Shown here piece by piece: positions 2,747-54,072 of a stretch of DNA of 64,000 bases (position 1 is the first letter of the stretch; every line of letters starts with the position of its first letter). A program made the position numbers and the translations under genes. The notes under the pieces are model-generated. The model searched no databases. It saw only the letters and a list, made by a program, of their open reading frames with translations, and had not been told where the DNA came from. The DNA comes from a virus. The DNA lies in the IMG/VR virus record IMGVR_UViG_3300050821_004119, positions 1 to 64,000 of that record; one strand, 5' to 3'.

Positions 2747-3087
2747 TATTTAAATACCTCTGTGCAAAATTTTTGAAATATTTCTTCTTGATTTCCAATA
2801 AATATATCACCTTTTTTATCAGTCATTAATAAATTATCAGAATCTAAAAATTGTGGTTGATTAATTTGACTAATGCTAAAACCAAGTTCTATTTTTTGTT
2901 CATTGGTTAATGCATGAAATACTTTTCTTGACTGTTGAATTAATTTATCTGATTCTATTCGTAGTAATTGGTGATTTTTAAATTCGGGAGTCAATTGTAC
3001 TAAGTTCCAAGATTCATTAGATAATTCACTAGCTAATCTAGTATTATTAATCAAATTTCTAATCTCTGCAATTTCGCCAATTTCCAT
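2746..3087 (-). CDS. Hypothetical protein, 113 aa
   Basis: Highly charged, mostly helical protein beginning MEIGEIAEIRNLINNTRLAS. It is unusually AT-rich compared with the neighbouring ATPase gene. It directly follows that gene with a one-base stop/start overlap, so the two are probably co-translated. No recognised domain. Confidence 0.7.
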   Translation of the reverse strand: MEIGEIAEIRNLINNTRLASELSNESWNLVQLTPEFKNHQLLRIESDKLIQQSRKVFHALTNEQKIELGFSISQINQPQFLDSDNLLMTDKKGDIFIGNQEEIFQKFCTEVFK

Positions 3088-4424
3088 TATGAATTCTCCT
3101 TATTAGTAGCCTTGACTTCGCGACGAATGTCCTTCGCTATAATTTTCTTGAGTAATAACATCGGTTCACAGAGTTCTGCAAGACGTTCATTCTCAGCCTT
3201 AAGCTCTCGGATATATTCAACCGTTTGCTGTGCTTTAAAATTGCCGCCTTGTTTTGCTTCTGTTTCAATAATCTGAAGTTCGAAAATACGATTCTGTAGT
3301 AATCCGTTATCCTCAGTCAGTGAGGCAACCTTTTTATGAAGCGAAGGAATAGTCTTTTCCATTTCATGAAGATACTTTGTCGGAACTACTGATGAACCAG
3401 ACTCAGCCTTGTCATCAATAATCTCTTGCTGCATCTCTTCGAGATTCACGCTCTCAATCGTTTTGAAGTGATTCAGATTTACATCATTGATTGTCCAGGT
3501 TGATTCTGTCTTCGGTTCGTTAATACGATCTTGCAGTTGTATACGACCATTTACATATATACAATCACCGGGTTTCATGCCCTGAACTGTTGCTTGAACA
3601 TTAGATAGTCCACAGATATCTTCGTAAATCTTAATATCATTTGGGTATGTCACATAATGCAATAGAAAAGCTTGACATTGTGTCAGTACGTCCTTCACAA
3701 CACTAGCAGGACGTTGTGACATAATACAAAGGGATATCTCACGCTTACGTCCGCGTTTTGCAAGCTGTACGATCATTTTTAGAAGAGGGTCATCCTTGGC
3801 TACGCCAGCACCCTGCGGGCAGTATTCATGTGCCTCTTCAATAAAGATACGATGGTAATGTTTTGTTTCCTGTGTTGCTGCCTCGAAGACGCCTTGAAGA
3901 TAAGCCTTCAAATAAGTCTTACGAATATCGTCGTCAATACCCGCAAGCAGAAGGACAACGTTCATCTTTTTTAGGTATGCTTTTCTTCCCATTTCGTAGA
4001 ATTCATTACTGTTCGTTAGTTTAATGTCCAGCTTCACGGAATCGAAATTATTAAGAGATGCAAGAGATAATGTATCTATCTTGTTCGCAACGCTCTCCAT
4101 AGTAATAGGAGGTCCAGCGAGCACTACTTCCCCTAGTGTTTTGAGGAAATGATACTCATTCTCAATATCGCAAACCGTAAATCCAAGTCCAAGGCGAATA
4201 TGCTCTTCCATAAATCGGCGAGCAGAGGTAGATTTTCCACTTCCGGTCGAACCCAATAGAGCAATTGACTTGCCGTTAATCTCCTGAGGATCAAGCGCAA
4301 TCGTAGGAGCAAGGATAATATGCTGAGTATTCCGCTGTACTGGCTTCAGCGCGGCACCTAAGGAAGGCGGAGTTGCCATAGGCTTAAGATTAGGGCGCGG
4401 AGGTAGCGGTGGTAATCCTGACAT
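3087..4424 (-). CDS. HerA/FtsK-like P-loop ATPase with C-terminal coiled coil
   Basis: A 445-residue ATPase. Walker A is GSTGSGKS (residues 58-65) and Walker B FIEEAHE (194-200), followed by a PLLKMIVQLAKRGRKREIS segment and SQRPASV, the arrangement of the HerA/DUF87 branch of hexameric DNA-pumping ATPases. The first 30 residues are Pro-rich. Residues about 350-430 are heptad-rich and look like a coiled coil. HerA proteins usually work with the nuclease NurA in end resection; no NurA is visible, but a Cas4/AddB-like nuclease lies in the same operon (15.6-16.9 kb). Its role in replication, recombination or DNA movement is inferred. No TerL nuclease motif is seen, so it is not the packaging motor. 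Confidence 0.85.
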   Translation of the reverse strand: MSGLPPLPPRPNLKPMATPPSLGAALKPVQRNTQHIILAPTIALDPQEINGKSIALLGSTGSGKSTSARRFMEEHIRLGLGFTVCDIENEYHFLKTLGEVVLAGPPITMESVANKIDTLSLASLNNFDSVKLDIKLTNSNEFYEMGRKAYLKKMNVVLLLAGIDDDIRKTYLKAYLQGVFEAATQETKHYHRIFIEEAHEYCPQGAGVAKDDPLLKMIVQLAKRGRKREISLCIMSQRPASVVKDVLTQCQAFLLHYVTYPNDIKIYEDICGLSNVQATVQGMKPGDCIYVNGRIQLQDRINEPKTESTWTINDVNLNHFKTIESVNLEEMQQEIIDDKAESGSSVVPTKYLHEMEKTIPSLHKKVASLTEDNGLLQNRIFELQIIETEAKQGGNFKAQQTVEYIRELKAENERLAELCEPMLLLKKIIAKDIRREVKATNKENS

Positions 4425-8903: not shown

Positions 8904-10345
8904 TATCGAATTTCCTTAAAATTGAATTTGGACTCATGCTTGTATATGCTGATACGCTTGCGAGTGTGATAGGCGAGCAGGTCTACAGAAGGTTTATAGT
9001 CGGCGACTTCAGCATGTGTTTTGCCAGGCGCATTTCGTAATGTTCTGCCTATGCGCTGATATACTTTGACGCTGGACTTGCCACCTCCTGCCATGTTTAG
9101 GGCATCTATGACGGGCAAGTCTAGGCCCTCGTCTGCAATACTGGTTCCGATAAGATGTCTTAACTTTCCTGATCGGACATCATTAAAAATCTTTTCTCTA
9201 TATTCTGAAGAATCCTTACCAGAAAGAAAGACAGTTTTTATTCCGCGAGCATTATGCAGCTTTTCGAGAGCAACCCCATGTTTGATCTGGGTAACGAGCG
9301 TCAGAATTGTTCTTCCGGCGTCGTACCATTCACGATTGATCTCAAGAACCTGATGGTGAAAATTAGTATTTTCCGTATAATAACATTTATTTAGAGTATG
9401 CCAATTGTCTTTTGGAGAACATCGTTCCTTTGGTTCGGCCTGTTGATGAACAGTCACGTTCGCAGGCACTAAATATCCCTTGTCAACAAGATCACTGATA
9501 CCTATATCGAATATCCTGGGACCTACAGCGGCTTCTATGAGCAGGTCGGCTCCGTCGTCGCGCCAGTCAGTTGCGGATAGTCCTAGACGCCATGTGGCGT
9601 TCTTGCACTTCTTCATTACCTGTGCGAAGGTGTCTGCAACAATGTGATGCACTTCGTCTACTATAACGACGTTCGCATCTTCGAGAAGTTTAATTACTTC
9701 TTCCTTCTTAATATTCAAGATTTCTTTTTTGTCTTCTGATTTATCCTCATGAATATCAAGGGCATAGGTAACAGTCTGCATTGTACAAATCGTAATAATA
9801 TTTGGTTCAAATATGCCACCTCCGCAAATACCTACAGCATCGAAATGTAATAGGCCGCGAAGAACTTCAGCAAACTGCTTCAGCAGGTCGATACGATGTA
9901 CTAGGATAACTGTGCGACGCTCAAGGCGGCTGACTAGGTGGGAAGAAACGAAAGTTTTGCCTGCGCCGGTAGCCATTCTAATAATTCCACACTTGTTTGT
10001 AATCGCTGATCGAATAGCTTCCTCTTGATACGGTCGAAGAGATAGTGCATCTTCTTTAATAGGATTAAAGAATTCGGGAGGCGATTCGATACGATTATCC
10101 CTTATCTGATATTCCAATCCATGTAGGTCTAGAAATTGTGTCACTCTTTGAAGCAGACCAGTTTGAAATACCCTGGTGGACGGCGTGATAAGGTACTTCC
10201 TTTCAGTCACATGTGGGTTAAAAGCCTTTTTGTGCATGAAATCTGGGTCCCTAAAACTGAGTTCCTGCATCAGGATAGTAAAGATTTTTTGATCAATAAT
10301 GCCAGTTATCTTGGACATTGTAGGAGTAACGTCAATTATTAACAT
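8903..10345 (-). CDS. UvsW-like superfamily 2 DNA helicase
   Basis: I start this at the ATG at 10345, which overlaps the preceding stop (TAATG) and has GGAAG upstream; a longer frame exists but lies inside the upstream gene. The 480-residue product has an N-terminal domain of about 100 residues, a Q-type motif (LRPYQEEAI), Walker A ATGAGKT (125-131), DEVHH (230-234), SAT (257-259) and motif VI QRIGRTLRN. This is the layout of phage UvsW/XPB-like helicases that remodel recombination intermediates and stalled forks. It lies two genes from the resolvase and recombinase, consistent with that role. Confidence 0.9.
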   Translation of the reverse strand: MLIIDVTPTMSKITGIIDQKIFTILMQELSFRDPDFMHKKAFNPHVTERKYLITPSTRVFQTGLLQRVTQFLDLHGLEYQIRDNRIESPPEFFNPIKEDALSLRPYQEEAIRSAITNKCGIIRMATGAGKTFVSSHLVSRLERRTVILVHRIDLLKQFAEVLRGLLHFDAVGICGGGIFEPNIITICTMQTVTYALDIHEDKSEDKKEILNIKKEEVIKLLEDANVVIVDEVHHIVADTFAQVMKKCKNATWRLGLSATDWRDDGADLLIEAAVGPRIFDIGISDLVDKGYLVPANVTVHQQAEPKERCSPKDNWHTLNKCYYTENTNFHHQVLEINREWYDAGRTILTLVTQIKHGVALEKLHNARGIKTVFLSGKDSSEYREKIFNDVRSGKLRHLIGTSIADEGLDLPVIDALNMAGGGKSSVKVYQRIGRTLRNAPGKTHAEVADYKPSVDLLAYHTRKRISIYKHESKFNFKEIR

Positions 10346-10707
10346 TAAGTATCTTCCATTATCGTTTGATATGCAGTCAACACTCTTGAACACGTCTCAT
10401 ATTTAGATTTACAACCACTTGCTGCTTTTTCAAGGTAATCACGAGCAGCAATCCTAATTTTATCCGTTCCAGCAGAGTAACGCACAGCTCCCCATAAACC
10501 AATAAGATAAGAATATGTTGAACCATAGAAGGCTAATAGGCGAATTAACTTCGCTACATTTTCTTTACTAGGTCCAGAATCAGGAATATCTTGTTGTTCA
10601 TCATCAATCAGATATTGAATCTCATCCAATAGTGCAGGAAAGGCATTATCAACATAGGATAATACATTATTGGTGTTGACTAAACCCCTAGCCGAACGAG
10701 CATTCAT
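10345..10707 (-). CDS. Hypothetical helical protein, 120 aa
   Basis: Predominantly alpha-helical protein with no Cys motif or membrane segment. Overlaps the P-loop gene by 4 nt (ATGA) and the helicase start by 1 nt. It sits between recombination genes, but no function can be assigned. Confidence 0.65.
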   Translation of the reverse strand: MNARSARGLVNTNNVLSYVDNAFPALLDEIQYLIDDEQQDIPDSGPSKENVAKLIRLLAFYGSTYSYLIGLWGAVRYSAGTDKIRIAARDYLEKAASGCKSKYETCSRVLTAYQTIMEDT

Positions 10708-11222: not shown

Positions 11223-11380
11223 CGTTTACCATAATCTATAACAATTTTCTTCTCTTTATACATCTTGAAAACATTTAGAAGATCGTCATAATCTTCAGGA
11301 AACATAAAATTACCACGCGTAACAACTTCATATTCAAGATTATATTGCTGAAGTTTGTTAATTAATTCCTTAACCTTCAT
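11219..11380 (-). CDS. Hypothetical protein, 53 aa
   Basis: The reading frame MKVKELINKLQQYNLEYEVV... fills the gap between the resolvase and kinase genes, with ATGA overlaps at both ends. The arrangement helix, two strands (YEVVTRGNFMFPEDY), helix is plausible for a small folded domain. Not recognised. Confidence 0.6.
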   Translation of the reverse strand: MKVKELINKLQQYNLEYEVVTRGNFMFPEDYDDLLNVFKMYKEKKIVIDYGKR

Positions 11381-11886
11381 GATACTTTCTTCTTTGCAGG
11401 CTTCTTAGGAGCCTTTAGTTCAAATTCACCCTTGAGAATAGCTTCACCACATTTGGCAAGTATGAAAGCATCGCATTCATCCTGTGAAGGAAAATCAATT
11501 TGCCACTTCTTATAGACAGCCAATGCCAAATCAGCTTTACCCTTAGATTTTCCACCTTTAGGCGTTTTTATCTCAAGGAAGCGTTTCATCGTTGTTGAGG
11601 CAACTGTAATAAACGGAATATTTTTCTCAATACAAACTCTTTGAATTATGTATTGAACCATACCGCTCTCAGCAACTCCAAACTTAGCAGCAAATGCAAG
11701 ACCTTCATGAACAACTAAGTCAATGTTATTCTCAATGTCTTCGTTTAATCTTTGTTCTAATGAATATAAACGATAGGCATTGTTGTCATGTTCAGCGGCA
11801 CTAATTTTCCAAGTATTATATCCCGTTTCATAAATGAGACATAGTGCCATATTGGTTAAGCCGGGATCAATTCCAAGAATTTTCAT
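11377..11886 (-). CDS. RuvC-like Holliday junction resolvase
   Basis: A 169-residue RNase H-fold nuclease. GIDPGLTN near the start gives catalytic Asp7. VVHEGLAFAAKFG provides the second acidic residue, and the C-terminal QDECDAFILAKCG helix carries the last acidic pair, the RuvC/poxvirus A22 pattern. It would cleave branched DNA before packaging. Start overlaps the recombinase stop by 4 nt. Confidence 0.88.
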   Translation of the reverse strand: MKILGIDPGLTNMALCLIYETGYNTWKISAAEHDNNAYRLYSLEQRLNEDIENNIDLVVHEGLAFAAKFGVAESGMVQYIIQRVCIEKNIPFITVASTTMKRFLEIKTPKGGKSKGKADLALAVYKKWQIDFPSQDECDAFILAKCGEAILKGEFELKAPKKPAKKKVS

Positions 11887-12944
11887 AAAAAACCATTTGC
11901 TAATCTCTCTAGCTCTGTAATCGCATCTTGATTACTACGAATCTCTTCTTTGAATTTATCAATTCCGTTCGCCCTGATCTCTTCAACATCACCTTCGACG
12001 ACGTACGGCAACACATATATATTTCCAGTCTTCGTCTCTTTGAAGTCGCTACCATTTAATACAAGAAATGAAAGGATATCTGTAATCTTATCGAAACCAA
12101 TCTTGTAATCAAGGTGAAGTTCAATGGGTGCAGAAATCGCTTTAATCTTTGATTTCTTTGTTTCGACTTTCATGTCGTGAGACATTGGATTACCATCTTC
12201 ATCCTTATTAAAATGCAATGCTGTTACCCAGGTCTTTGTTGTTGCAGAATACTTTAGGGCTTCCCCACCAGCCCCATAACGAGGGTCACCGAAAGACATG
12301 CCAGGCTTTAGCCGGAGTTGATTGATCCAAAACAGGGTTACTCCACGTCTTCCAGCACTCGCAACGAGGCGAGGGAGCCATAACGAACCAACTCTTGCAA
12401 GCGCCGCCATTCCGACGGCTTTTGTTGCGCTACCACCCCAAGAGTCATAAGTGATTGTGTCAACAATCTTTAAACGATTATTGAACACGAATTCATTTTT
12501 CACCTCTTCATAACCCATTAAATTCATGGCGATCAAACAGGCTTCTTCTGCTGTCTCTGGTCGAATTATAATAAGGCGATCAGGATCACAATTTACTCCA
12601 AGCATTTCAAAGAACTGAATATTTGCTGTGTGCTCCAAATCAATAAGGGCATGAATAGAAGAGGGATGCGATCTCTGATAGGTTCCGACAGAAGCAAGAG
12701 CAATACTAGTTTTGCCACTTCCGGGAGCACCTTCAAGAACATGGAGTCTGCCTTTCGCCCATCCGCCTAAGCCTAGAGCCTTATCTACAGAGTAAAATCC
12801 TGAGGAAAATGTTTCAATGTGTTTAATCGCTAAGGGGTCAGGAACAGAAAGCGGAGAGGTTAGTTTTGCTATCCTCTCTCGCATATTGTCCGCAGTATTG
12901 TCGGAGAGAGCAGTTACGCTCTCTCCTTTCTTTGGACGTGCCAT
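11883..12944 (-). CDS. RecA/UvsX-like recombinase
   Basis: A 353-residue strand-exchange ATPase. Walker A is GAPGSGKT (72-79), followed by LIDLEHTAN (Walker-B-adjacent acidic strand), IVDTITYD, and the loop-containing WINQLRLKPGMSFGDPRYGAGGEALKYSATTK, which closely follows the RecA motif around NQ and the L2 region. It would drive recombination-dependent replication with the SSB candidate, the UvsW-like helicase and the RuvC-like resolvase. Confidence 0.92.
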   Translation of the reverse strand: MARPKKGESVTALSDNTADNMRERIAKLTSPLSVPDPLAIKHIETFSSGFYSVDKALGLGGWAKGRLHVLEGAPGSGKTSIALASVGTYQRSHPSSIHALIDLEHTANIQFFEMLGVNCDPDRLIIIRPETAEEACLIAMNLMGYEEVKNEFVFNNRLKIVDTITYDSWGGSATKAVGMAALARVGSLWLPRLVASAGRRGVTLFWINQLRLKPGMSFGDPRYGAGGEALKYSATTKTWVTALHFNKDEDGNPMSHDMKVETKKSKIKAISAPIELHLDYKIGFDKITDILSFLVLNGSDFKETKTGNIYVLPYVVEGDVEEIRANGIDKFKEEIRSNQDAITELERLANGFL

Positions 12945-31432: not shown

Positions 31433-32098
31433 ATGGCAAAAACGCAATACAAGCAAGCGAAGGAACTTTCGCTCCAGGCGCGTCTCAAGCAGGTTCTTCG
31501 GCTTCATATGGGCGGAATGAGCCATTTTGGCATTGCCCGCGAGATGGAATATAGTGTTGCACAGGCCAAAAAGGATGTTGCGACGATCTCTCATGCCACA
31601 AGAGAATGGGATGACGTCGGTGAGTATCTGAAGGATGTTGTTACGCGCACTGGCGAATTACTGAAAAATTTGAAATATCAGCAGGATTTACTGCAAAAAC
31701 AGTTGGATTATTCGAATGAGTGGGTCGTTCAGCTTGATTCCTTCGCTCAGCCAATCAAAGAGAGACTGTCGAATGGAGAACTTGGTTCCATCCTTTACGG
31801 ACCTCGTGACTCTCGACTTTCTATCGCCCTTAGCTCTAAAATCACTGATCTGATCGAACAACAGGGTAAATTACTTGGTGTTTACGCCAAAACCATGGAT
31901 GTGACGGTCAAACTTGAAGAATCAGAGAAAACTACTGTGCTTGTTCTTCAAGCTATTCAAGAGGCCGCACCCGAACTACAATCCAAAATTGTGCGTAAAT
32001 TGAAAGCTCTACGTGCCTCTGAAAACCGATTCTCTAACGTAGAAGTCGAAAGACTCGAAGGCGAGTACGAAGAGCCTGGGTATCTCGATGCCGAGTAA
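31433..32098 (+). CDS. Putative terminase small subunit
   Basis: 221 residues, immediately upstream of TerL and overlapping it by 11 nt. The N-terminal part has an HTH-like segment (RLKQVLRLHMGGMSHFGIAR... YSVAQAKKDV), followed by a long helical, coiled-coil-prone region. DNA recognition at the packaging site is its expected role; assignment rests largely on HTH and position. Confidence 0.72.
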   Translation: MAKTQYKQAKELSLQARLKQVLRLHMGGMSHFGIAREMEYSVAQAKKDVATISHATREWDDVGEYLKDVVTRTGELLKNLKYQQDLLQKQLDYSNEWVVQLDSFAQPIKERLSNGELGSILYGPRDSRLSIALSSKITDLIEQQGKLLGVYAKTMDVTVKLEESEKTTVLVLQAIQEAAPELQSKIVRKLKALRASENRFSNVEVERLEGEYEEPGYLDAE

Positions 32099-33983
32099 TC
32101 CTAGGGGTGTAGACGGTCATCACGCGGGCGGCGGCGCACGTAAGAAGACGACTACGTACCTCGACATTGATAAGGTATCCGATAAGGCATCTAAATTGAT
32201 GACCTCTATTGATGATTACCTGAACGCACTACCTGACGAAGACGAAGTTGTCGATGAAATATTTAAGGAAAAGTTTGTAGATTTAAGAACCTGGCTTTAT
32301 GCTCCTGAATATATGGGTCTTGAAATTCAGTTATCGCCGATTCAGTTCGAAGTTATGCAAGCAATGGATAATTATGATCCAACGACTAATCCTTATACTG
32401 AAGCAGTCTGTGAATGGGGTAAAGGATCAGGAAAAGACTTTGTGTCTGCTCTTTGTGCTCTTCGTTGTGTCTATTGGTTGCTATGTTTAAGAAGTCCTTA
32501 TCTTTATTACAAGTTAGCAAAAGGTACTGGAATTCAACTTTGTAATGTCGCTTATACTGCTGAACAGTCAATTTACGTTTATTTTAAGCAATTAACCGGA
32601 TTGATTAAGGCTTCATCTTGGTTTGTGAAACAAAAACCTGATATTAAGAAGTCCAGAATTGATTTTGCAAATGAAATTACTCTTGTGTCTACTTCTACTG
32701 ACGGCGATAGTGCTGAGGGTCAGAATCTTATATTTGCGGTTATGGACGAAGCATCGGCTTTTAAAGATTCAAAGACGATTAAGGCGCAGTCGCGCAAGGA
32801 TGGGGTTAAAGTAGACCGAGCAGCAGATGGAATATATAAAGTATTAAGATCATCTATTAATTCTCGCTTTCCTAACTCTGGAAAATTAATGATCATCTCT
32901 TATCCTCGTTATAAGGATGATTACATTCAAACAAAGTTAGAAGAGAATAAAAATGCCACAAAAGGTTTCATTTCTGGTCCCTATGCAACTTGGGAAGTTA
33001 ATCCATCTAAACAAAGATCTGATTTTAATGAGGATTATGAAAAGAATCCTGAATTAGCCGATGCAATGTATGGTTGTAATCCTCCCTTTTCTGAGGACGC
33101 TTGGGTTAAGTATCCAGATAGATTCCTAAAATGCATTCTTAATTCGGTGAAATTAAATACTTTAAAGTCACCGATTAATGAATATGGCATTTATGATCCC
33201 TTTTTCCAGGGAACACCTGGTAAGCTATATTGTATTCATGTAGACCTTGCGCTTAATTCAGATAAGTGTGCTTTATCGCTTGCTTCGCAGGGACATCCTA
33301 TTATCAAAGAGAAGTGTCCTTGTGGAGCTAATGCTCCTTGGGATGAGAAATATGAAGTTTGCAGTAGTTGTGGTTTAACAAAGGACAAATGGCTGAAGAT
33401 TTCAATGCCAACAATGGTTGTTTCTTTATTGAAACATTTTCGCCCCAGAAGTTCTGCATCGGGTAGACAAGAAGTACATTTCGCTGATATTCGTGAGGAA
33501 ATTCTCTTTCTTCGTGATCGCGGACATAAAATATGGGCTCTATCATATGACGGATGGCAATCAAGAGATTCCATTCAGACGATGCAGCGTCTCTTAGGAA
33601 AACGAATTATCAAGGATAGATGGGGACAACCTATTCGTGAAGAGGAAATAGCTCAAACTTTATCAGTTGACCGAGATACTAAGGCTTATGACACATTAAA
33701 AGAGTTTATTTATGATGAGAGATTTTTTATAACACCTCCTGAAGATGTGAAGAAAAAAGAAGATTGGGAAACCTCAGAAGATCCAGTAGCAATTGCGTTT
33801 AGGGAATTTAGGGGATTGAGACTAATTAATGCAAAAAAGGTAGACCATGCGATTGGATCAAGTAAGGACTTCACAGATGCAATAGCAGGATGCGCTTATT
33901 GGATATCACAGATGCCAATATCAAGAGGCAGAGGTCCATCTTTAAATGGTTGGCGCGAGAATATTAGTACGGATAGGAGATAA
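32088..33983 (+). CDS. Terminase large subunit (packaging motor)
   Basis: 631 residues. Walker A EWGKGSGKD (109-117), Walker B IFAVMDEAS (215-223), and a coupling region. The nuclease domain begins YCIHVDLALNSDKC with catalytic Asp386. A four-cysteine ribbon (C410, C412, C425, C428) is inserted after the first nuclease strands, which is uncommon in TerL. It powers DNA packaging and cuts genome ends. Confidence 0.93.
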   Translation: MPSNPRGVDGHHAGGGARKKTTTYLDIDKVSDKASKLMTSIDDYLNALPDEDEVVDEIFKEKFVDLRTWLYAPEYMGLEIQLSPIQFEVMQAMDNYDPTTNPYTEAVCEWGKGSGKDFVSALCALRCVYWLLCLRSPYLYYKLAKGTGIQLCNVAYTAEQSIYVYFKQLTGLIKASSWFVKQKPDIKKSRIDFANEITLVSTSTDGDSAEGQNLIFAVMDEASAFKDSKTIKAQSRKDGVKVDRAADGIYKVLRSSINSRFPNSGKLMIISYPRYKDDYIQTKLEENKNATKGFISGPYATWEVNPSKQRSDFNEDYEKNPELADAMYGCNPPFSEDAWVKYPDRFLKCILNSVKLNTLKSPINEYGIYDPFFQGTPGKLYCIHVDLALNSDKCALSLASQGHPIIKEKCPCGANAPWDEKYEVCSSCGLTKDKWLKISMPTMVVSLLKHFRPRSSASGRQEVHFADIREEILFLRDRGHKIWALSYDGWQSRDSIQTMQRLLGKRIIKDRWGQPIREEEIAQTLSVDRDTKAYDTLKEFIYDERFFITPPEDVKKKEDWETSEDPVAIAFREFRGLRLINAKKVDHAIGSSKDFTDAIAGCAYWISQMPISRGRGPSLNGWRENISTDRR

Positions 33984-43172: not shown

Positions 43173-43678
43173 TGTTTAGTGTTGAAGCAATTAATATCCC
43201 TATTGATCTCGAAGCGAAGTTACTGACGGCTCTTTCTCCTGAGAACCTAACGATCAGGACTATTGCAATTGCCAAAGAAGCTGGTACAATATTACTGAAT
43301 CATGCCGTACAGGCTTGTATCGACAGTGTGTACAGTGCTTCAAGTCTAACTACTGATCCAGAACACGAATATGAAAGAACACTAGCATTATTAGATTCAC
43401 ATTATGTCGATGATCAAGACCTGGAACAGTTTATAGGAATTGATCCCACCGCCGAAGCGGTTGATCCTCACTCGGGTAGAGAAATGGTGCTGGATTATGC
43501 GATTCCAATTCATGAGGGGTATACGCAACATTATTTTGGCCACAACACTGGCAATTTTGTTGTCGGCAAGCCGTGGTTTGATCAAACTGTCGCTGAAGCT
43601 GCACCGATCATTACTGCTTTTATCATTGAGGCTTATTCCACAATAGTTGAAGAGATATTAATTGAGGCTTTTAGGTGA
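43172..43678 (+). CDS. Putative head-tail joining protein, 168 aa
   Basis: Helical N-terminus (LEAKLLTALSPENLTIRTIA) and mixed C-terminus. One-base overlap with the gene before. Neck/connector role inferred from order. The stop overlaps the GTG of the HNH gene. Confidence 0.5.
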   Translation: MFSVEAINIPIDLEAKLLTALSPENLTIRTIAIAKEAGTILLNHAVQACIDSVYSASSLTTDPEHEYERTLALLDSHYVDDQDLEQFIGIDPTAEAVDPHSGREMVLDYAIPIHEGYTQHYFGHNTGNFVVGKPWFDQTVAEAAPIITAFIIEAYSTIVEEILIEAFR

Positions 43679-44163
43679 GGAAATTAAATGATCTTAAATT
43701 ACACGATTTAAAAGTCGATGAATTTGAGTATATTATTTCTTATTGTAAAATTCTCAATATTTCAATCTCCAGAAAACATCGTCAATGTCTTTATAATCAC
43801 AGTCATAAAGATACTAGGAAAAGGTTGACTTTTCACAATAGTCCTAGAAGTAAGGCTTATTATCAAGAAAATAAGCAAAAACTAAGTAGCAATCATAAAC
43901 AAAGATTATTGGATCAAAAATCTCAAGTAATTGAAGCATACGGTGGTAAATGTAATTGTTGTGGAGAAACTGGCCCTAAATTTTTATCTATTGATCATAT
44001 TTTTAATGATGGCTCTAAGGTTAGATCAATAGAAGGTAAGGGATCAATGGTTTATTATTACCTAATAAAACATAATTTTCCTAAAGAACGTCATCAGTTG
44101 TTATGCATGAACTGTAATTTTGGTAAACATATGAACGGCGGCATTTGTCCGCATAAGGAATAG
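43675..44163 (+). CDS. HNH homing endonuclease, 162 aa (GTG start)
   Basis: CNCCGETGPKFLSIDHIFND contains Cys93/95/96, Asp107 and His108; LLCMNCNFGKH supplies the second CxxC. This is the HNH endonuclease pattern common in phages. It sits between neck genes, overlapping the first by 4 nt and ending 2 nt before the next, and is more AT-rich than either. A homing insertion that kept the operon readable. Confidence 0.88.
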   Translation: MRKLNDLKLHDLKVDEFEYIISYCKILNISISRKHRQCLYNHSHKDTRKRLTFHNSPRSKAYYQENKQKLSSNHKQRLLDQKSQVIEAYGGKCNCCGETGPKFLSIDHIFNDGSKVRSIEGKGSMVYYYLIKHNFPKERHQLLCMNCNFGKHMNGGICPHKE

Positions 44164-45486: not shown

Positions 45487-45539
45487 GAACTAGAAAAATT
45501 CAAGTGGTTCAAAACCACATCAAATTGAGGAGATTATTC

Positions 45540-46844
45540 ATGAGTTCAGACAAAGTTTCTAATTTAATACCATCGGTAACTACGGCGACCGATGGTATTG
45601 CTATTGCCAAAAGGCATACCATTCTTGCGATAAGCGATTTTGGAACTTCCGGCATCAGCGAGAGTGCCCGTTTACCTCTATACCATTTTCACGAGCAAGG
45701 CCATATCATTTGGCACCTTGCGCTCGGTTTCAATGGTATTGTTGCAACCGTAGATCGCTCTCTGTATCCTTGGGCTGACAGATTGTTGCCGATTTTCCCC
45801 CGCAGTGAAGAGACAAAATTCGGACAACTGCAGATACGCCAGGCGTTAGAGATCGCGAAGCCAAGTATCATTTTGAGTACCTTCGACATTTGGATGACCG
45901 AGTACCTTGTGCATCCTGAAAAATCAAATAGCCTTGACGACGCGACGAAGGAAATTCTGTCGCACCAAAAACGCAAATTTCATCATATTCTTTATTTTCC
46001 TATTGACGGTTTACAAGAAGGTAAATATCTTCCTGTCGGTATGGATGATAGCGTACTAGGCGCAGATTCGCCCATTACGTATTCTAAGTTCTCGCGCGAT
46101 GCCATTAAATTCAATACGAATATTGATGTCCCATTCATACCAATCCCCCACAATCCTGCAATTTACCGACCGCTTGACAAAAAAGAATGCCGTCGTAAGA
46201 TGCACCTCAATGAAGATGCATTTATCGTAGGAATGATTGGTACGAACCAGTATCGAAAATCCTGGGGACATTTCATGGACGGCGTAGTACCACTTGCACA
46301 AAAACACAAGGATGTGCTTATCCTTCCTTATACCAACTGGTCGCAGATGTTAATGGGTGGGGCGGATATTAAGTCACTTATTTACCGCAGTGGACTCGAA
46401 GATCGCGTAATTGATCCTTCTGGATTATGTGGAAAACTGGATGACGAAGGCATGGCGATTTTGTATAATTGTCTCGATGTTTGTGTATTAGCAACCGTTG
46501 GAGAGGGCTGTGGTCTTCCTCCCCTCCGCGCCCGCGCATGCGGTATTCCTGCTCTCGTTACCGCAAATACCAGCAATACCGAATTCTTTGGACATCCCTT
46601 CGAAGGTATTAAAGTAAAAGCAAAATACTTCGACAATTTCGGTTCAAATCTGGAACGATACATTACCGATTCTGACGACCTCCGCGAGAAACTGGAAATC
46701 CTGTACAACAATCCCGAGTTTCGAAACGAAGTAGGACAGGCTGGATTAACGCATATGAAACAATTCGAAGTCGATAAAGTAATGCCACTTTGGGACGATG
46801 TTCTTGCAAAGATTCCTGTTCGCACAGATGAGGTGGCGCAATGA
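45540..46844 (+). CDS. Glycosyltransferase, GT-B fold (group 1/GT4-like)
   Basis: 434 residues from the ATG after GAGGAG at 45540. The C-terminal domain has DVCVLATVGEGCGLPPLRAR... and ACGIPALVTANTSNTEF, matching the E-x7-E/G nucleotide-sugar site of GT-B enzymes (EGxGLPxLEA). The N-terminal domain starts HTILAISDFGTSGISESARL. Between tail-tube and tail-assembly genes, it might glycosylate a tail protein; modification of host surface or DNA is the alternative. Confidence 0.85.
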   Translation: MSSDKVSNLIPSVTTATDGIAIAKRHTILAISDFGTSGISESARLPLYHFHEQGHIIWHLALGFNGIVATVDRSLYPWADRLLPIFPRSEETKFGQLQIRQALEIAKPSIILSTFDIWMTEYLVHPEKSNSLDDATKEILSHQKRKFHHILYFPIDGLQEGKYLPVGMDDSVLGADSPITYSKFSRDAIKFNTNIDVPFIPIPHNPAIYRPLDKKECRRKMHLNEDAFIVGMIGTNQYRKSWGHFMDGVVPLAQKHKDVLILPYTNWSQMLMGGADIKSLIYRSGLEDRVIDPSGLCGKLDDEGMAILYNCLDVCVLATVGEGCGLPPLRARACGIPALVTANTSNTEFFGHPFEGIKVKAKYFDNFGSNLERYITDSDDLREKLEILYNNPEFRNEVGQAGLTHMKQFEVDKVMPLWDDVLAKIPVRTDEVAQ

Positions 46845-47455: not shown

Positions 47456-47675
47456 AGACCGCGAGAATCTGAAAATGATGATTCGCTCTACGGTCGAACA
47501 AAGATTTGGCACGGCGGCGGACTCGGTTCGCAACTTTGTTGAGAAAAAGGAAATCCCGCTGTCGATTGGCGAGATCATACAGAAGTTCATTCGTACCCAG
47601 GGGAACTATGCGATTAGGACTCTTGAGGCACATATTGATCATCATGAAGTTACATACAAGAAACAAGGAGATTAG
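47442..47675 (+). CDS. Hypothetical protein, 77 aa
   Basis: Helical, charged protein (MSHHEDRENLKMMIRSTVEQ). Just before the tail chaperone gene. Unknown. Confidence 0.58.
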   Translation: MSHHEDRENLKMMIRSTVEQRFGTAADSVRNFVEKKEIPLSIGEIIQKFIRTQGNYAIRTLEAHIDHHEVTYKKQGD

Positions 47676-47677
47676 TC

Positions 47678-48100
47678 ATGTCAGTAGTTCGTATCCCCCG
47701 CAAAATCAAGACCTTCGAATATGAGGGTTCAAAATTTGGTATTCGTCGTCTGCGTGTTGGCGAGATGGCTGAACTTACCCGCCTTACTTCCCTGTACCTT
47801 CTTTCAACCCGTCAAGAGTTGAAACAGGTCGTTGAAGATAAGATCACGGAATTCGCCGTTGTTCAGGGTGACCTGCATTTGATGCACGAAGCCCAAGTGT
47901 ACCTAGCGAAAACCGCTGTTATCGACCTCGAAAAACAGAATGCGATTTTCTTCGGCGACGAGAAGATTGAAGATGTGGACAATGACTTTGTGAGTGCCGC
48001 GTGGACCTGCTACAATACCGACGACACTGTGAAGGTTGAAAGTACTTCTGATCGCCCTTTGGAGCCCGTAGCGACTCCTCCGGCGACGACATCCGTCTAA
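47678..48100 (+). CDS. Tail assembly chaperone (short form)
   Basis: 140 residues, AAGGAG upstream. Its position immediately before the tape measure and the adjoining overlapping frame identify it as the equivalent of lambda gpG. The sequence begins MSVVRIPRKIKTFEYEGSKF. Produced by normal translation; a -1 shift yields the longer form. Confidence 0.75.
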   Translation: MSVVRIPRKIKTFEYEGSKFGIRRLRVGEMAELTRLTSLYLLSTRQELKQVVEDKITEFAVVQGDLHLMHEAQVYLAKTAVIDLEKQNAIFFGDEKIEDVDNDFVSAAWTCYNTDDTVKVESTSDRPLEPVATPPATTSV

Positions 48101-48351
48101 GACGAAACATTCTAAGTATAGCTGAGTATTTCCATATCAATCCGCTGGATGTTCATAAATGGGAATACTGCTACTTTTTAGAGGTAGTAGAGGATGTAAA
48201 TCGTTTAGTTGAGGAGAAGAATGCAAGGCAAATGGATAAGAATCCTGAGCCTGAAAAGAATGAAGATGGGACATACTTCGATAGCGAGTATCAAGAAGCC
48301 CATACCTTAACAAACGAGGAAATGATGTCTGAATTAGAGGGGTCTTTCTAA
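47678..48351 (+). CDS. Tail assembly chaperone, -1 frameshift product (gpGT-like)
   Basis: The slippery heptamer C CCT TTG lies at 48055-48061 (X XXY YYZ in the zero frame). The -1 frame is open from 48052, passes the zero-frame TAA at 48098 and continues to the TAA at 48349. The fusion would be 224 residues: 128 from the first frame plus 96 (GARSDSSGDDIRLRRNILSI... ending SELEGSF). The extension has no start of its own and ends one base before the tape-measure ATG. This matches the conserved lambda G/GT strategy, including -1 direction and position. Confidence 0.85.
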
Positions 48352-51300
48352 ATGTTTGAACGCAGTATTGGAATCAGATTAACCTTGTTGCCTGCCTTCG
48401 CAGAAGCGACAAAGTTAATTCTGTCCAATATTGGTGAGATTAATAAGGGATTGCAGTCCATCAATGAACAGGGTTCAAAGATTAATGTTAATGGATTGCA
48501 GACTTTAAATAAGGAATTATCTAGTCTAGTTGGTGCGGCTGGTGCAGCGAAGACTGCAATTGAAGCATTAAATGGCATCAAGATTTCCAAGAGTACTTTA
48601 TCGGCATTAGAAATTGGAATGACTGGTGTCGCTAAGTCGGCTAAGGTTGCAAAGGAAGCGATCAAGGAAACTGAAGTTCAGGTAGCACAGACCGCTACCG
48701 TCGTTGAAGCGAAGACCGCAGAGATGACTAAGGGATTTTTCAATTTAGCTGAAGAGGTAATGTTTGCTGAAAAGGCTTTAGCAAAACTTGCTCTTTTTGC
48801 TATGCCGAAAATGACCGAACCTATCGTTGGAATGAAGAATTTGACTGCGCACATTATGCTTGCAGAACAAGCAATGCGAAGACTCGACACCTTTGTTCCT
48901 AAAAATTTAGAAGATACAGTAATGCGACTGAATTCCGGCCTGCGGAATATGGTTGCTTTGTCATCTGGTGCTGGCGCTTCTCCGATGGCCTTGGGACCGG
49001 GACCTTCTTGGTCTACCGGAAGTAATCAATACGGTACGCGCAATATGTCGCTTGGTGCTGGCGGCACCCCAGAAGAAGCAAGACCTTGGTCGTCTGTTAC
49101 TGGCGACCGCCCGAATATGCTTGGTTCTGGTAATTGGGCTGGAAATAATATTACACCTTACGGTCAGCGAAATGTTACGCCAGGTTCTAGTGCCTATGAA
49201 TCTGGTTATGGCGGACAATCGTATTCTGGTGCTGCTGGAGCGATTACACCTTATGTTCAGGATTTAGGTCAGGGTAGATTTATTCCAAAAGGTGTTCCAG
49301 GTCGCCCTGATTACGGAGCTATGCCTCCTGCTGAATTTGGTAATAATGTAGCTAAATTCGGTAGTGCAATTTCAAGATTTGGCGATCAAACTCAATCATT
49401 TGGTTGGTCAGCAATAATGCCCGCAATGATGGCGGCTAGTGTTGCTGTTCCTGCGATTACAAGCCAAATGGATTTGCAAGACTTATATGCCGTTGCTCAT
49501 GAAGCATTGCAAGCCTCAAACGTAAGACCAGAACATTATGCTGCCAATATGAAGGGTGCAGAAGATGTATCTACAAAATTTGGTGGTTCATTAAGAGAAA
49601 ATATATCTGGTGTTTATACATTTATTTCTTCATTACCAACGGCAATTGATTTAAATAATCAAAAAAATATTGATTTAATGAATCAATCATATGAACAAAT
49701 AACAAAAGGTGGATTAGTTGGTGGTCGTTCTACACATCCGGTATCTCAAGAACATGCGATTCTTGATATTTTAGCATCTGTATCTAATTTGGGCATGCCT
49801 ATGAAAAATGCCGTACAATTAAGTCAGTCAATTAATACCCTTACCGATGTATATACTAATATCAAAAATAGGACATCTACGGACTTTGATTTACTTGGTA
49901 GTTCAGTTCGTAATATTGGTGCAATTGCTCATAACATGGGAATATCTTGGGAAGATACCATGACGATGGTAGGATTACTAGCAAAAGGAAAATATCGTGG
50001 TTCTGTAGCTGGTACTTCAATGAAGAGATTGTTCTCTCGTCAAACTATGGATCCGGCTCAAGCAAGAAAAGTAGAAGAAACTGTTGCTCATTTCGGCGGC
50101 AATGTTTCTATGTTCGATCATGGAAAAGTTCGATCTCCATTAGACTGGATTGCAGATGTTGCTAAATTTGAAGACCAACATCTGAAAGGTCCACAATTTG
50201 CTAAAGCAAGAATGCAATTAGAAGGTGGATTATCTGGTCTTTATCCTGGTGCTCCATTTGGAGAAATGGTTAATCTTTCTCGTGTAATGGGTGGTTCTAA
50301 AGGTTTTGCTGAATTTAAGAAATCACTTATTGGTGGTGCCCCTGGTGCAACTGATAGAGCAGCAGAAACCCGTGATATGGGTGGTAAGAATATTAAGTTT
50401 GAATCACAGAAGATTGATAATACTTGGCAGTTGGAGATGGCAAAAACCTTCAAAATGATGGGACCAGATATTATTAATGTTCTTCATTCTATTCAGGACT
50501 TGATTAAAGTATGGGATGGACTTTCTGATCCGGTCAAAGAATCTACTGTTCGTATTGCCGCATTCACTGTTGCGTTACTTGGTATTACTGGTATTGCTGC
50601 TATTTTCATTGGCAATTTCACTAAAATTGGTGGATTTGCAATTTCCGCAGGTGGTAATTTCATCAAATTGTCGGAACATTTACTTGGTTGTTCTGGTGCT
50701 GCCAATATTCTAAAAACAAGTTTGGTTGATAAACTCGCTGCATCAACCAGGGGAATTCTTGCTCCTGCATTAACCGCCGTAAAAACTGGATTAATGGGGA
50801 TGGTTAGGGCGTTTGCTGCATCAGATATTGCCATTGCTGCAACCGAATTATTATTAGGTCCAGTCGGTTGGATCATTCTTGGTATTGGTGCTATTACTGG
50901 TGGTTTTGCTCTTGCCTGGTCGAAAGATTGGGGCGGTATTCGAGAGAAGGTTGCTAATTTTCCTGCATTCCTAGGTGAGATCGTTGGACATATTCAAGTT
51001 TGGTTCGGGCATATTCCAGAACATTTACGGGATGCTGGTAACAAAATTAAAGAAATTTGGACCGGACTATGGGATGGCGTATTTGGTATTTTCAAAAATA
51101 TTTGGCAAGGAATTAAAGATATAATTTCTGGTGGTTTTCATTTCCCGGCAATTCATGTCAATTGGCCGCATCCTCCTGATTGGTGGGGGAAGACACAAGA
51201 AGAATTCCGTAAAGGACAAGCTAAGGGTGTTGCTGCTGAAGAAAAATCTGAAGGTATTACACATGCTACTTTTGGTACTTCACCTATGTCTCTGTTGTCC

Positions 51301-54072
51301 GGCGGTAATCAAGGTGGCGCGGCTGATCTGAGTTTCCTGACGAACGCTCCTGTTAGTAAGCCTGCTGGTCCTATTGGTCCTACGCTTGCTGCCGCACATC
51401 GTATTATTCAAAAACATGCTGAAAATGTTGCTGTTGTTAATAGTTTCGTTGCGGCGAACCCAGATCTTGCTTCTAGTGGAGGCGGCGGAGGTGGTTACAC
51501 GCCTGCTGCAAGCCCTGTAGCTCCTATTGTACAGGCCGCTGCTGGACATGCCGCCACTGTTAAGAGTGTTGTAAATTCTGGAGCATCCGATCAGGAAGTT
51601 GCCGATGCAATTGCCGCTCTATTTGATCCTTCAAAAAAGGTCAAGAAACATAAGGTTAAGCAGGGAATTGCTGACGGCTTCCTCGAATTAAAATCTCTGT
51701 CTATTGCACAGGTCGAAGAGTCTGCTGCTAAAATTACCGCTGCCTTAGAGAAGGCCGGAGCAAAGATTCACAAGACCTGGATTGATATTCTTGATCTTAA
51801 AACGATGAAGGTTACGCGGGTACATGGCGATTTATCTGCATACAAAGCCGCACTTGGAACAACAACTAAAGATGATTCTGTTCAAATTGCTCATGATTAT
51901 TTAATGAAAATTAAACGCGAAATCGAACATGGTGTTCCGGTCGATACAGATAAGGTGCTCGCAAATATGGCAATCCTGTATTCACATGCGATGTCTGATC
52001 ATGCGAAGAACGTCATTCTACAAATGGGAGATACGATTGCTGCTGCATTCCATAAGGCTGGCGACAAGATTAATCAGGCATTTGAGAAGAAGAAAGCTGC
52101 TTTTGATACAAATCTCAGAGAAGGTGCAACAACTCGCGCTGGCGATAAGTTCGATCTCCTGCAAGAACAAATGGGCGGTAAGGTTCCTACACTTGGGGAA
52201 TCTCCTACGACTAAAGACTTGACTTCGGTTATTAAAGCTGAAACTGCGGAACGTAATGCTCTTGCTTCTACTCTTCTTAATGAAAAAGATGATGCTAAGG
52301 ATTTGGCAACGAAGTATGCTGAACTTACCGCTGAGATTGATAAATTGAACGGCAAGTCTGCATACGAACAGAAAATTCGCCAAGAGAAGAAAGCCGAGCT
52401 TGCGGCCCTTCAACCTGCATATGATGCAGTAACAGCGCGTATCGCGGCCCAACAGGGTGTTGTCGATAATCTTAGTGCTTCTATTTTGAAACAAAATGAG
52501 GCGCTTAAAATTGCCAAAGACACATGGTCAGGGTTATTTTACAACATTCAACAACATAATGTTTCTACACTGATCGACCAGAATTTCAAGGGTCTTGGTG
52601 ATCATATTCAGAATTATTTCCAAAGACAGAATTTGCCAACTGGTTCCGCTGGTAACTCTTGGCGTGGACAACAGGCTAATGATTTTGCTAATCAGTTTAT
52701 GCAACAATTGATGACTGGAATTACTGGAGCGTCTGGAAGCACAAGTATGCTTGAGAAGATTTTTCACGCCGGTACTAAAGGTAATAAGAAAACTGGACAG
52801 CCTCCAACACAAGCTGAAACTCAGTATATTCAAAAAGCAGATGAAGGAAACAAGACTTTATCAAAAATCGAAAAGAACACACAATATTTAAATCCAAGTA
52901 CCGTTAAATCTGTTGGTGGTTCCAGTGTTGCCAATGCTAATGGAATACCCATGCCTGTTGCGGTATTTGATCAAAATGGTTCAACTGATGTTGGACAATC
53001 ACTTCTTGATACGCAAAATGCAATATTAAATAATACTGCAAGTGTGACATATGGTGGTGGAACTGCTAGCTCAAATCAAGCATCTGATCAATCTACTGCG
53101 CTGACTTCAATGCAAAAGTTTCAGCAGGTTGCTAATGATATTTCTACTGGAATGAGTTTATTGAATGGTCTTAAAGCAGGCGGTATTGGTGGAGCATTAC
53201 AGGCTGGTTCTGCTGCACAGAGTTTAGCTGGTGCATTTGGTGCCTCAGTTGGAACTAGTAATACGATTGCTTTAATTACAAGTGCACTTGGTTTTCTTGG
53301 AATTGGTCCGCATACTACACCGGCACAAGCACCTGATATTAACAATCCTCAATATGGTCAGAATACTGCAAATTGGTCTGGTTCACAACAACTTGTTAAT
53401 GGTCAGCAGATTCAACCTAATGCACAGTATTCCTCTTATATGGGTGCTCAAAACGAAGCAACACAGATGTATAATTATGTTTCTAATCCTGCTTCACAAA
53501 TTGGAATGAATCCAGCACAACAACTTGCAATTCAGCAAATGGCAGCACTCTCTAAAAATTCTAAGGGCGTTGACATGGGTGCGGCTGGTCTTGCTATTAC
53601 TTCAGAACATCAAGGTGTTTTGACTCTTGCTGATGGACAAAAAATCTCCGTTACAGATTTTGACAACCTATTGAATACTACACAGGGTATGTTATCGCAG
53701 TTCCAAAATAATGCCCTTCAGCAACAACAGAATGCTGATCGCCTTGCGTCTTCGTTTACCGCGATGTTGTTGAACGGTCCTGCTGGCTTCACTATGCCTG
53801 ATTTCGTCGGTGGTGGTTCTGGTCAAGCTGGAATTAATCATGTGATGCCGACTGCATCTGTTGGTAATAACAATTTAAGAACAACACAAAGTACACCAAC
53901 AACGCAAACTGTTAATGTTCAGATTATGCCTGGTGCGACGATTCATGGAGCAACAGTTGAAACTGTTCAGACAGCTATCGAAAATAGCATTCCTCAAATA
54001 ACACAAGCTGTGAATGCCCAGAACTATGGCGCGGCCAGGTTCTCGGGAAATTACACGAGTAATACGTGGTAG
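48352..54072 (+). CDS. Tape measure protein
   Basis: 1906 residues, the longest gene, right after the frameshifted chaperone. It sets tail length; at about 0.15 nm per helical residue it predicts roughly 285 nm. Helical throughout, with two hydrophobic segments near residues 740-840 (AFTVALLGITGIAAIFIG and LGPVGWIILGIGAITGGFAL), Gly/Ser-rich stretches and a Gln/Asn-rich C-terminal third. No lysozyme or peptidase motif seen. Confidence 0.95.
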   Translation: MFERSIGIRLTLLPAFAEATKLILSNIGEINKGLQSINEQGSKINVNGLQTLNKELSSLVGAAGAAKTAIEALNGIKISKSTLSALEIGMTGVAKSAKVAKEAIKETEVQVAQTATVVEAKTAEMTKGFFNLAEEVMFAEKALAKLALFAMPKMTEPIVGMKNLTAHIMLAEQAMRRLDTFVPKNLEDTVMRLNSGLRNMVALSSGAGASPMALGPGPSWSTGSNQYGTRNMSLGAGGTPEEARPWSSVTGDRPNMLGSGNWAGNNITPYGQRNVTPGSSAYESGYGGQSYSGAAGAITPYVQDLGQGRFIPKGVPGRPDYGAMPPAEFGNNVAKFGSAISRFGDQTQSFGWSAIMPAMMAASVAVPAITSQMDLQDLYAVAHEALQASNVRPEHYAANMKGAEDVSTKFGGSLRENISGVYTFISSLPTAIDLNNQKNIDLMNQSYEQITKGGLVGGRSTHPVSQEHAILDILASVSNLGMPMKNAVQLSQSINTLTDVYTNIKNRTSTDFDLLGSSVRNIGAIAHNMGISWEDTMTMVGLLAKGKYRGSVAGTSMKRLFSRQTMDPAQARKVEETVAHFGGNVSMFDHGKVRSPLDWIADVAKFEDQHLKGPQFAKARMQLEGGLSGLYPGAPFGEMVNLSRVMGGSKGFAEFKKSLIGGAPGATDRAAETRDMGGKNIKFESQKIDNTWQLEMAKTFKMMGPDIINVLHSIQDLIKVWDGLSDPVKESTVRIAAFTVALLGITGIAAIFIGNFTKIGGFAISAGGNFIKLSEHLLGCSGAANILKTSLVDKLAASTRGILAPALTAVKTGLMGMVRAFAASDIAIAATELLLGPVGWIILGIGAITGGFALAWSKDWGGIREKVANFPAFLGEIVGHIQVWFGHIPEHLRDAGNKIKEIWTGLWDGVFGIFKNIWQGIKDIISGGFHFPAIHVNWPHPPDWWGKTQEEFRKGQAKGVAAEEKSEGITHATFGTSPMSLLSGGNQGGAADLSFLTNAPVSKPAGPIGPTLAAAHRIIQKHAENVAVVNSFVAANPDLASSGGGGGGYTPAASPVAPIVQAAAGHAATVKSVVNSGASDQEVADAIAALFDPSKKVKKHKVKQGIADGFLELKSLSIAQVEESAAKITAALEKAGAKIHKTWIDILDLKTMKVTRVHGDLSAYKAALGTTTKDDSVQIAHDYLMKIKREIEHGVPVDTDKVLANMAILYSHAMSDHAKNVILQMGDTIAAAFHKAGDKINQAFEKKKAAFDTNLREGATTRAGDKFDLLQEQMGGKVPTLGESPTTKDLTSVIKAETAERNALASTLLNEKDDAKDLATKYAELTAEIDKLNGKSAYEQKIRQEKKAELAALQPAYDAVTARIAAQQGVVDNLSASILKQNEALKIAKDTWSGLFYNIQQHNVSTLIDQNFKGLGDHIQNYFQRQNLPTGSAGNSWRGQQANDFANQFMQQLMTGITGASGSTSMLEKIFHAGTKGNKKTGQPPTQAETQYIQKADEGNKTLSKIEKNTQYLNPSTVKSVGGSSVANANGIPMPVAVFDQNGSTDVGQSLLDTQNAILNNTASVTYGGGTASSNQASDQSTALTSMQKFQQVANDISTGMSLLNGLKAGGIGGALQAGSAAQSLAGAFGASVGTSNTIALITSALGFLGIGPHTTPAQAPDINNPQYGQNTANWSGSQQLVNGQQIQPNAQYSSYMGAQNEATQMYNYVSNPASQIGMNPAQQLAIQQMAALSKNSKGVDMGAAGLAITSEHQGVLTLADGQKISVTDFDNLLNTTQGMLSQFQNNALQQQQNADRLASSFTAMLLNGPAGFTMPDFVGGGSGQAGINHVMPTASVGNNNLRTTQSTPTTQTVNVQIMPGATIHGATVETVQTAIENSIPQITQAVNAQNYGAARFSGNYTSNTW

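Follow-up and report, generated by a model that had tools for sequence, protein, structure and literature searches.

Organization of the locus

The window, by which we mean the whole 64,000-nucleotide stretch analysed here, belongs to a virus record of 70,311 bases. Directly upstream of its tail tape-measure gene lies a short open reading frame (ORF) whose 3' end is overlapped by an open −1 frame. The features of this region are as follows.

47665–47670, + strand: Shine-Dalgarno sequence AAGGAG of the chaperone ORF, 7 bases 5' of its ATG and kept in the relative described below
47678–48100, + strand: 0-frame ORF of 140 aa, a G-like tail assembly chaperone as identified from position and layout
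48055–48061, + strand: slippery heptamer C_CCT_TTG, in phase, the sole X_XXY_YYZ of the overlap in both phages
48052–48100, + strand: overlap of the 0 and −1 frames in which the shift would have to take place, bounded by TGA 48049–48051 (−1 frame) and TAA 48098–48100 (0 frame)
48061–48351, + strand: T-like extension in the −1 frame, 96 codons plus TAA, with no conserved start of its own
48337–48342, + strand: Shine-Dalgarno sequence GAGGGG of the tape-measure gene, assigned from sequence and lying within the end of the T frame
48352–54072, + strand: tail tape-measure protein of 1906 aa, matching PHROG tape-measure families (best E 4.8e-20)

In the frame of the ATG at 47678, the codons around the heptamer are GAT CGC CCT TTG GAG; CCCTTTG is read C CCT TTG and fits the X XXY YYZ pattern in the right frame, as the earlier note had claimed. 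In the −1 frame, TGA 48049–48051 is followed directly by TCG CCC TTT GGA, and the frame stays open up to TAA 48349–48351, which abuts the tape-measure ATG at 48352. The earlier description of a −1 frame open from 3 nt before the heptamer to this TAA is accurate in all its coordinates. The predicted products are an unshifted protein of 140 aa and a fusion of 224 aa that includes the 96 −1-frame codons past the heptamer. A +1 shift was ruled out because the +1 frame is full of stops.

Two other genes of this neighborhood stand out. Within the tail gene cluster, a group 1 glycosyltransferase gene (45504–46844, + strand; PF00534, E 2.4e-7) lies between the chaperone and the presumed tail-tube gene, and an ORF among the head-tail genes (43675–44163, + strand) has an HNH-endonuclease-like pattern (CNCC...IDHI...CMNCN), as judged by eye.

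How much of this layout might arise by chance? The −1 frame stays open in only 0.06% of 20,000 base shuffles of 48055–48348, and across the same interval 10 and 11 stops interrupt the other two forward frames. In-phase X_XXY_YYZ heptamers occur 60 times in the 16,579 codons of 53 window ORFs, such that ~0.06 are expected in the 49-base overlap. The heptamer by itself is thus weak evidence, and the argument is carried by the layout together with its conservation. The same layout test flagged a UvsX-like recombinase gene (11377–12944, − strand), which overlaps the next gene by 46 bases in the −1 frame and has an in-phase TTTTTTA within that overlap. The next gene is a RuvC-like resolvase with its own ATG, and this second case is probably due to chance.

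Family and structure searches

Scans of G and T against Pfam and PHROG gave no significant family; for G there was no Pfam match and no PHROG match below 0.05. Such chaperone proteins often share no detectable sequence. AlphaFold models were weak (mean pLDDT 40 for G and 65 for T), and matches of the T profile to solved structures, which consisted of repetitive designed proteins and short stretches, were set aside.

Conservation of the extension

A search for relatives in viral contigs found a single contig that covers the region, IMGVR_UViG_3300012210_000006; two further contigs (L013 and L015) are fragments that end short of the chaperone region, and a search of genome contigs found no close relatives. 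Conservation therefore refers to one pairwise comparison with a close relative, plus remote, weak matches to T. Both ORFs recur in the relative, as does the heptamer, in unchanged phase, and there too the TAA of the extension abuts the tape-measure start, which in this phage is a GTG. The 0-frame protein is 74% identical between the two phages and the −1 extension 76%. The linker around the heptamer has diverged, with changes in length and an ungapped flank identity of 24/57 (42%), and amid this poorly conserved sequence CGCCCTTTGGA is unchanged. Seven identical bases would be expected by chance at that flank identity with p ~0.002.

What does the comparison say about the coding status of the extension? 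First, synonymous sites are saturated, differing between the window and the relative at 66–81%. Second, over the 82 codons past the G stop, the substitutions fall at the three −1-frame codon positions as 15/9/32, with pS 0.69, pN 0.12, dN/dS 0.07 and zero stops. Third, the other two forward frames have 7–10 stops in each phage and dN/dS >1. This substitution pattern indicates that purifying selection acts on the extension as a protein, and in the −1 frame only. The refutation check proposed in the earlier note, lack of conservation of the extension in relatives, was thus run, and the extension proved to be conserved.

A real base insertion or deletion, or a sequencing or assembly error, could in principle have split one gene, leaving the −1 layout as an artefact or a decaying gene, and both phages are known as metagenome contigs. 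This is extremely unlikely: the layout is the same in two contigs with saturated synonymous sites, the dN/dS of the G and T parts are both low, and remote phages, some of them isolates, show the same −1 relation. Because the dN/dS of 0.07 is specific to the frame, the extension is selected as a protein in the −1 frame and does not reflect recent sequencing errors.

A second alternative is that G and T are two separate adjacent genes, with T translated either by reinitiation once G has terminated or from some non-standard start, with no frameshift. The first in-frame ATG of the extension, at 48232, has an AGGAG-like stretch upstream of it, and the only other start of a usual type is CTG 48145. 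However, the ATG lies deep inside the extension, and neither start is present in the relative, whose only ATGs are near the end of T, which bears out the earlier claim that the 96-residue extension has no start of its own. The two phages share no usual start codon upstream of the last ten residues of the extension, which disfavours separate translation of T, and in both phages every usual start is downstream of the selected T-like core (residues IRLRRNILSIAEYF...). In addition, the relative has its G stop further downstream, which leaves the two phages with no shared reinitiation distance, and in each of them the −1 frame runs open through the heptamer. Translation of T as a separate gene is therefore very improbable, and frameshifting is the preferred reading.

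The window and its relative also form an intein-empty/occupied pair. An in-frame insertion of ~335 residues (9571–10575) in the terminase large subunit of the relative has matches to LAGLIDADG (E 2.5e-14) and to intein splicing (E 4.7e-8), and the terminase of the window (32088–33983) has no such insertion. Besides this terminase, a HerA-type ATPase gene of the window (3087–4424, − strand; DUF87, E 5.6e-10) matches a PHROG named terminase large subunit (E 5.7e-19).

Remote phages with a T-like domain

Phage records were searched with the fusion or with the extension of the relative, and the matches, each non-significant taken singly, included Yersinia phage vB_YenM_12 and near-copies (tblastn E 0.6 and 0.1), Vibrio phage 1.123.O (E 4), Salmonella phage F1055 (E 6), and Mammaliicoccus and Pectobacterium matches (E 9). 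The Pectobacterium match (Horatius, E 9) was taken as chance, as the genes annotated there are on the opposite strand and include no tail gene. In vB_YenM_12, F1055 and 1.123.O the match is closely followed by a tape-measure gene or a tape-measure match; each falls at the end of an ORF in the chaperone position and uses the −1 frame relative to that upstream ORF. In 1.123.O, the ORF after T matches tape-measure PHROGs. When the Yersinia T domain was in turn used as a query, it matched Escherichia phage BUCT618 (E 8e-12) and Vibrio phage 13VT501A (E 2e-5), both again in the −1 frame.

The upstream ORFs of vB_YenM_12, BUCT618 and 13VT501A have weak matches to chaperone PHROG 1613; that of F1055 matches Pfam PF10109 Phage_TAC_7 above the cut-off, and that of 1.123.O has no family match. 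In-phase heptamers occur in the overlaps of BUCT618 (TTTTTTG), 13VT501A (CCCAAAG), 1.123.O (TTTTTTT) and F1055 (TTTTTTT); the vB_YenM_12 overlap has no heptamer of classical form. An hhalign comparison of the window/relative T pair with four remote T domains gave a probability of 95.7% over 34 columns, although the pair was picked after the BLAST matches and so this is not an unbiased test. The shared T core reads RRNILSIAEYFHINPLDVHKWEYCYFLEVVEDV versus RAAIFSVAKFYNVSPNEVRKWPYEFFLDALESV.

The T core (window 48100–48200) looks a little like a helix-turn-helix. The T domain of 1.123.O (L021 1495–1671) has weak, below-cut-off helix-turn-helix matches, with a best E of 6e-4.

Five isolated phages have a −1 T extension that is either annotated as a separate, truncated hypothetical protein or left without annotation. 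These extensions are as follows.

L017, 3974–4189: T extension
L018, 1501–1656: T extension
L019, 1480–1707: T extension
L020, 1519–1728: T extension
L021, 1495–1674: T extension

Since the T domains are annotated in these ways, annotation pipelines miss the fusion in the Yersinia, E. coli BUCT618, Vibrio and Salmonella F1055 phages.

Probable slip site and junction

In simultaneous slippage at this heptamer, tRNA-Pro in the P site shifts from CCU to CCC, on which a tRNA with a GGG anticodon would pair fully, and tRNA-Leu in the A site goes from UUG to UUU and retains two pairs. Because both tRNAs would slip after TTG has been decoded, with Leu already added, the main junction should be DRPL-GARSD (Leu kept), with the tryptic peptide VESTSDRPLGAR. 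A slip before TTG is decoded, that is, a P-site slip, would give RPF-GARSD, which should be a minor form with the peptide VESTSDRPFGAR. The earlier note had proposed RPF/GARSD as a junction peptide, and this holds only for the expected minor product; the main shifted form should be RPL-GARSD. An example peptide of the T part is NILSIAEYFHINPLDVHK. On HIV U_UUU_UUA, 70–80% of the product has Leu (PMC5009743).

Is CCCTTTG the site of the shift? A real −1 shift could use another position of the overlap, or depend on the slip of one tRNA alone or on transcriptional slippage, rather than on dual slippage on CCCTTTG. The overlap of the Yersinia relative, with no classical heptamer, suggests that other sites can serve in such a gene position. 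Nonetheless, neither close phage has an X_XXY_YYZ in the overlap other than CCCTTTG, which is identical in the two, and the 49-base overlap has no homopolymer run long enough for polymerase slippage. A different site or mode of slippage is thus unlikely, and we favor dual slippage on CCCTTTG.

No Shine-Dalgarno-like element was found 6–17 bases upstream of the heptamer in the window or the relative, the best upstream duplex energies being −3.7, starting at −24, in the window and −1.8 in the relative. Folding revealed no downstream RNA structure stronger than shuffles (z 0.1 to 1.5). Without stimulators, C_CC.U_UU.G is among the patterns that shift >0.10% in E. coli (Sharma et al. 2014, PMC4066793), and C_CCU_UUG is outside the most efficient class of E. 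coli heptamers (PMC4066793); these efficiencies are for E. coli, and the tRNAs of the phage's host may differ. With a modest heptamer and no Shine-Dalgarno-like or structural stimulator, a low shift frequency is expected, in line with the lambda ratio of ~30:1 (PMC5009743). One tentative possibility, which we regard as rather doubtful, is that C_CCU_UUG is a naturally selected chaperone slip site that has neither a 5' nor a 3' stimulator, with its modest slipperiness alone setting a low GT:G ratio. A literature search for CCCTTTG or CCCTTT with frameshift or phage found no relevant phage case; key papers lay outside that search.

Interpretation

The locus is very probably the G/GT tail assembly chaperone gene of the phage, expressed by −1 ribosomal frameshifting of the lambda G/GT type at CCCTTTG. 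The layout, the phase of the heptamer, the close relative and the remote T-like domains all support the earlier proposal of a −1 programmed frameshift in a tail chaperone gene; production of the fusion, the occurrence and frequency of the shift, and the roles of G and GT are inferred. Most ribosomes would translate 47678–48100 and make the 140-residue chaperone (G). A small fraction would slip one base back with tRNA-Pro on CCT and tRNA-Leu on TTG, the tRNAs would re-pair on CCC and TTT, and 96 more codons would be read to give the 224-residue fusion (GT). By analogy with lambda, many copies of G and few of GT would then coat the tape-measure protein, and the T part would recruit the tail-tube subunit. 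In lambda, G binds the tape measure, T binds the tail-tube protein, and neither is in the virion (PMC5009743); these properties, carried over from lambda, would presumably apply here as well.

Comparison with known systems

−1 G/GT frameshifting is widely conserved among tailed phages (PMC5009743), and the present locus adds a well-supported case of it from a phage lineage for which the databases contain almost no relatives. The slip site is less usual than A- or G-rich ones, as the earlier note had remarked: the slip core is pyrimidine-only (CCCTTT).

The locus is like lambda G/GT (G_GGA_AAG, −1) in its position directly upstream of the tape-measure gene, a short 0-frame ORF followed by a −1 extension that has no start of its own, and an in-phase heptamer near the 3' end of G. 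It differs in that G of the window has no detectable family match and the heptamer is C_CCT_TTG. The P2 E/E' and Mu 41/42-type genes (PF10109 Phage_TAC_7), here represented by F1055, likewise have a −1 extension between the tube and tape-measure genes, and the F1055 extension is weakly similar to that of the window. However, F1055 has the in-phase heptamer TTTTTTT and a 0-frame protein that matches PF10109, whereas that of the window does not. Finally, Yersinia phages vB_YenM_12/vB_Yen_X1 and Vibrio phages 13VT501A and 1.123.O also have a T-like domain in the −1 frame. These Yersinia and Vibrio phages are contractile-tailed (they have sheath genes), with a T that is ~30 residues shorter than that of the window and with slip sites that differ from CCCTTTG (CCCAAAG, TTTTTTT, or none evident), but their T domains and that of the window have in common the motif ...VAk.f.isP.eV..W.y..FLd..E.v.
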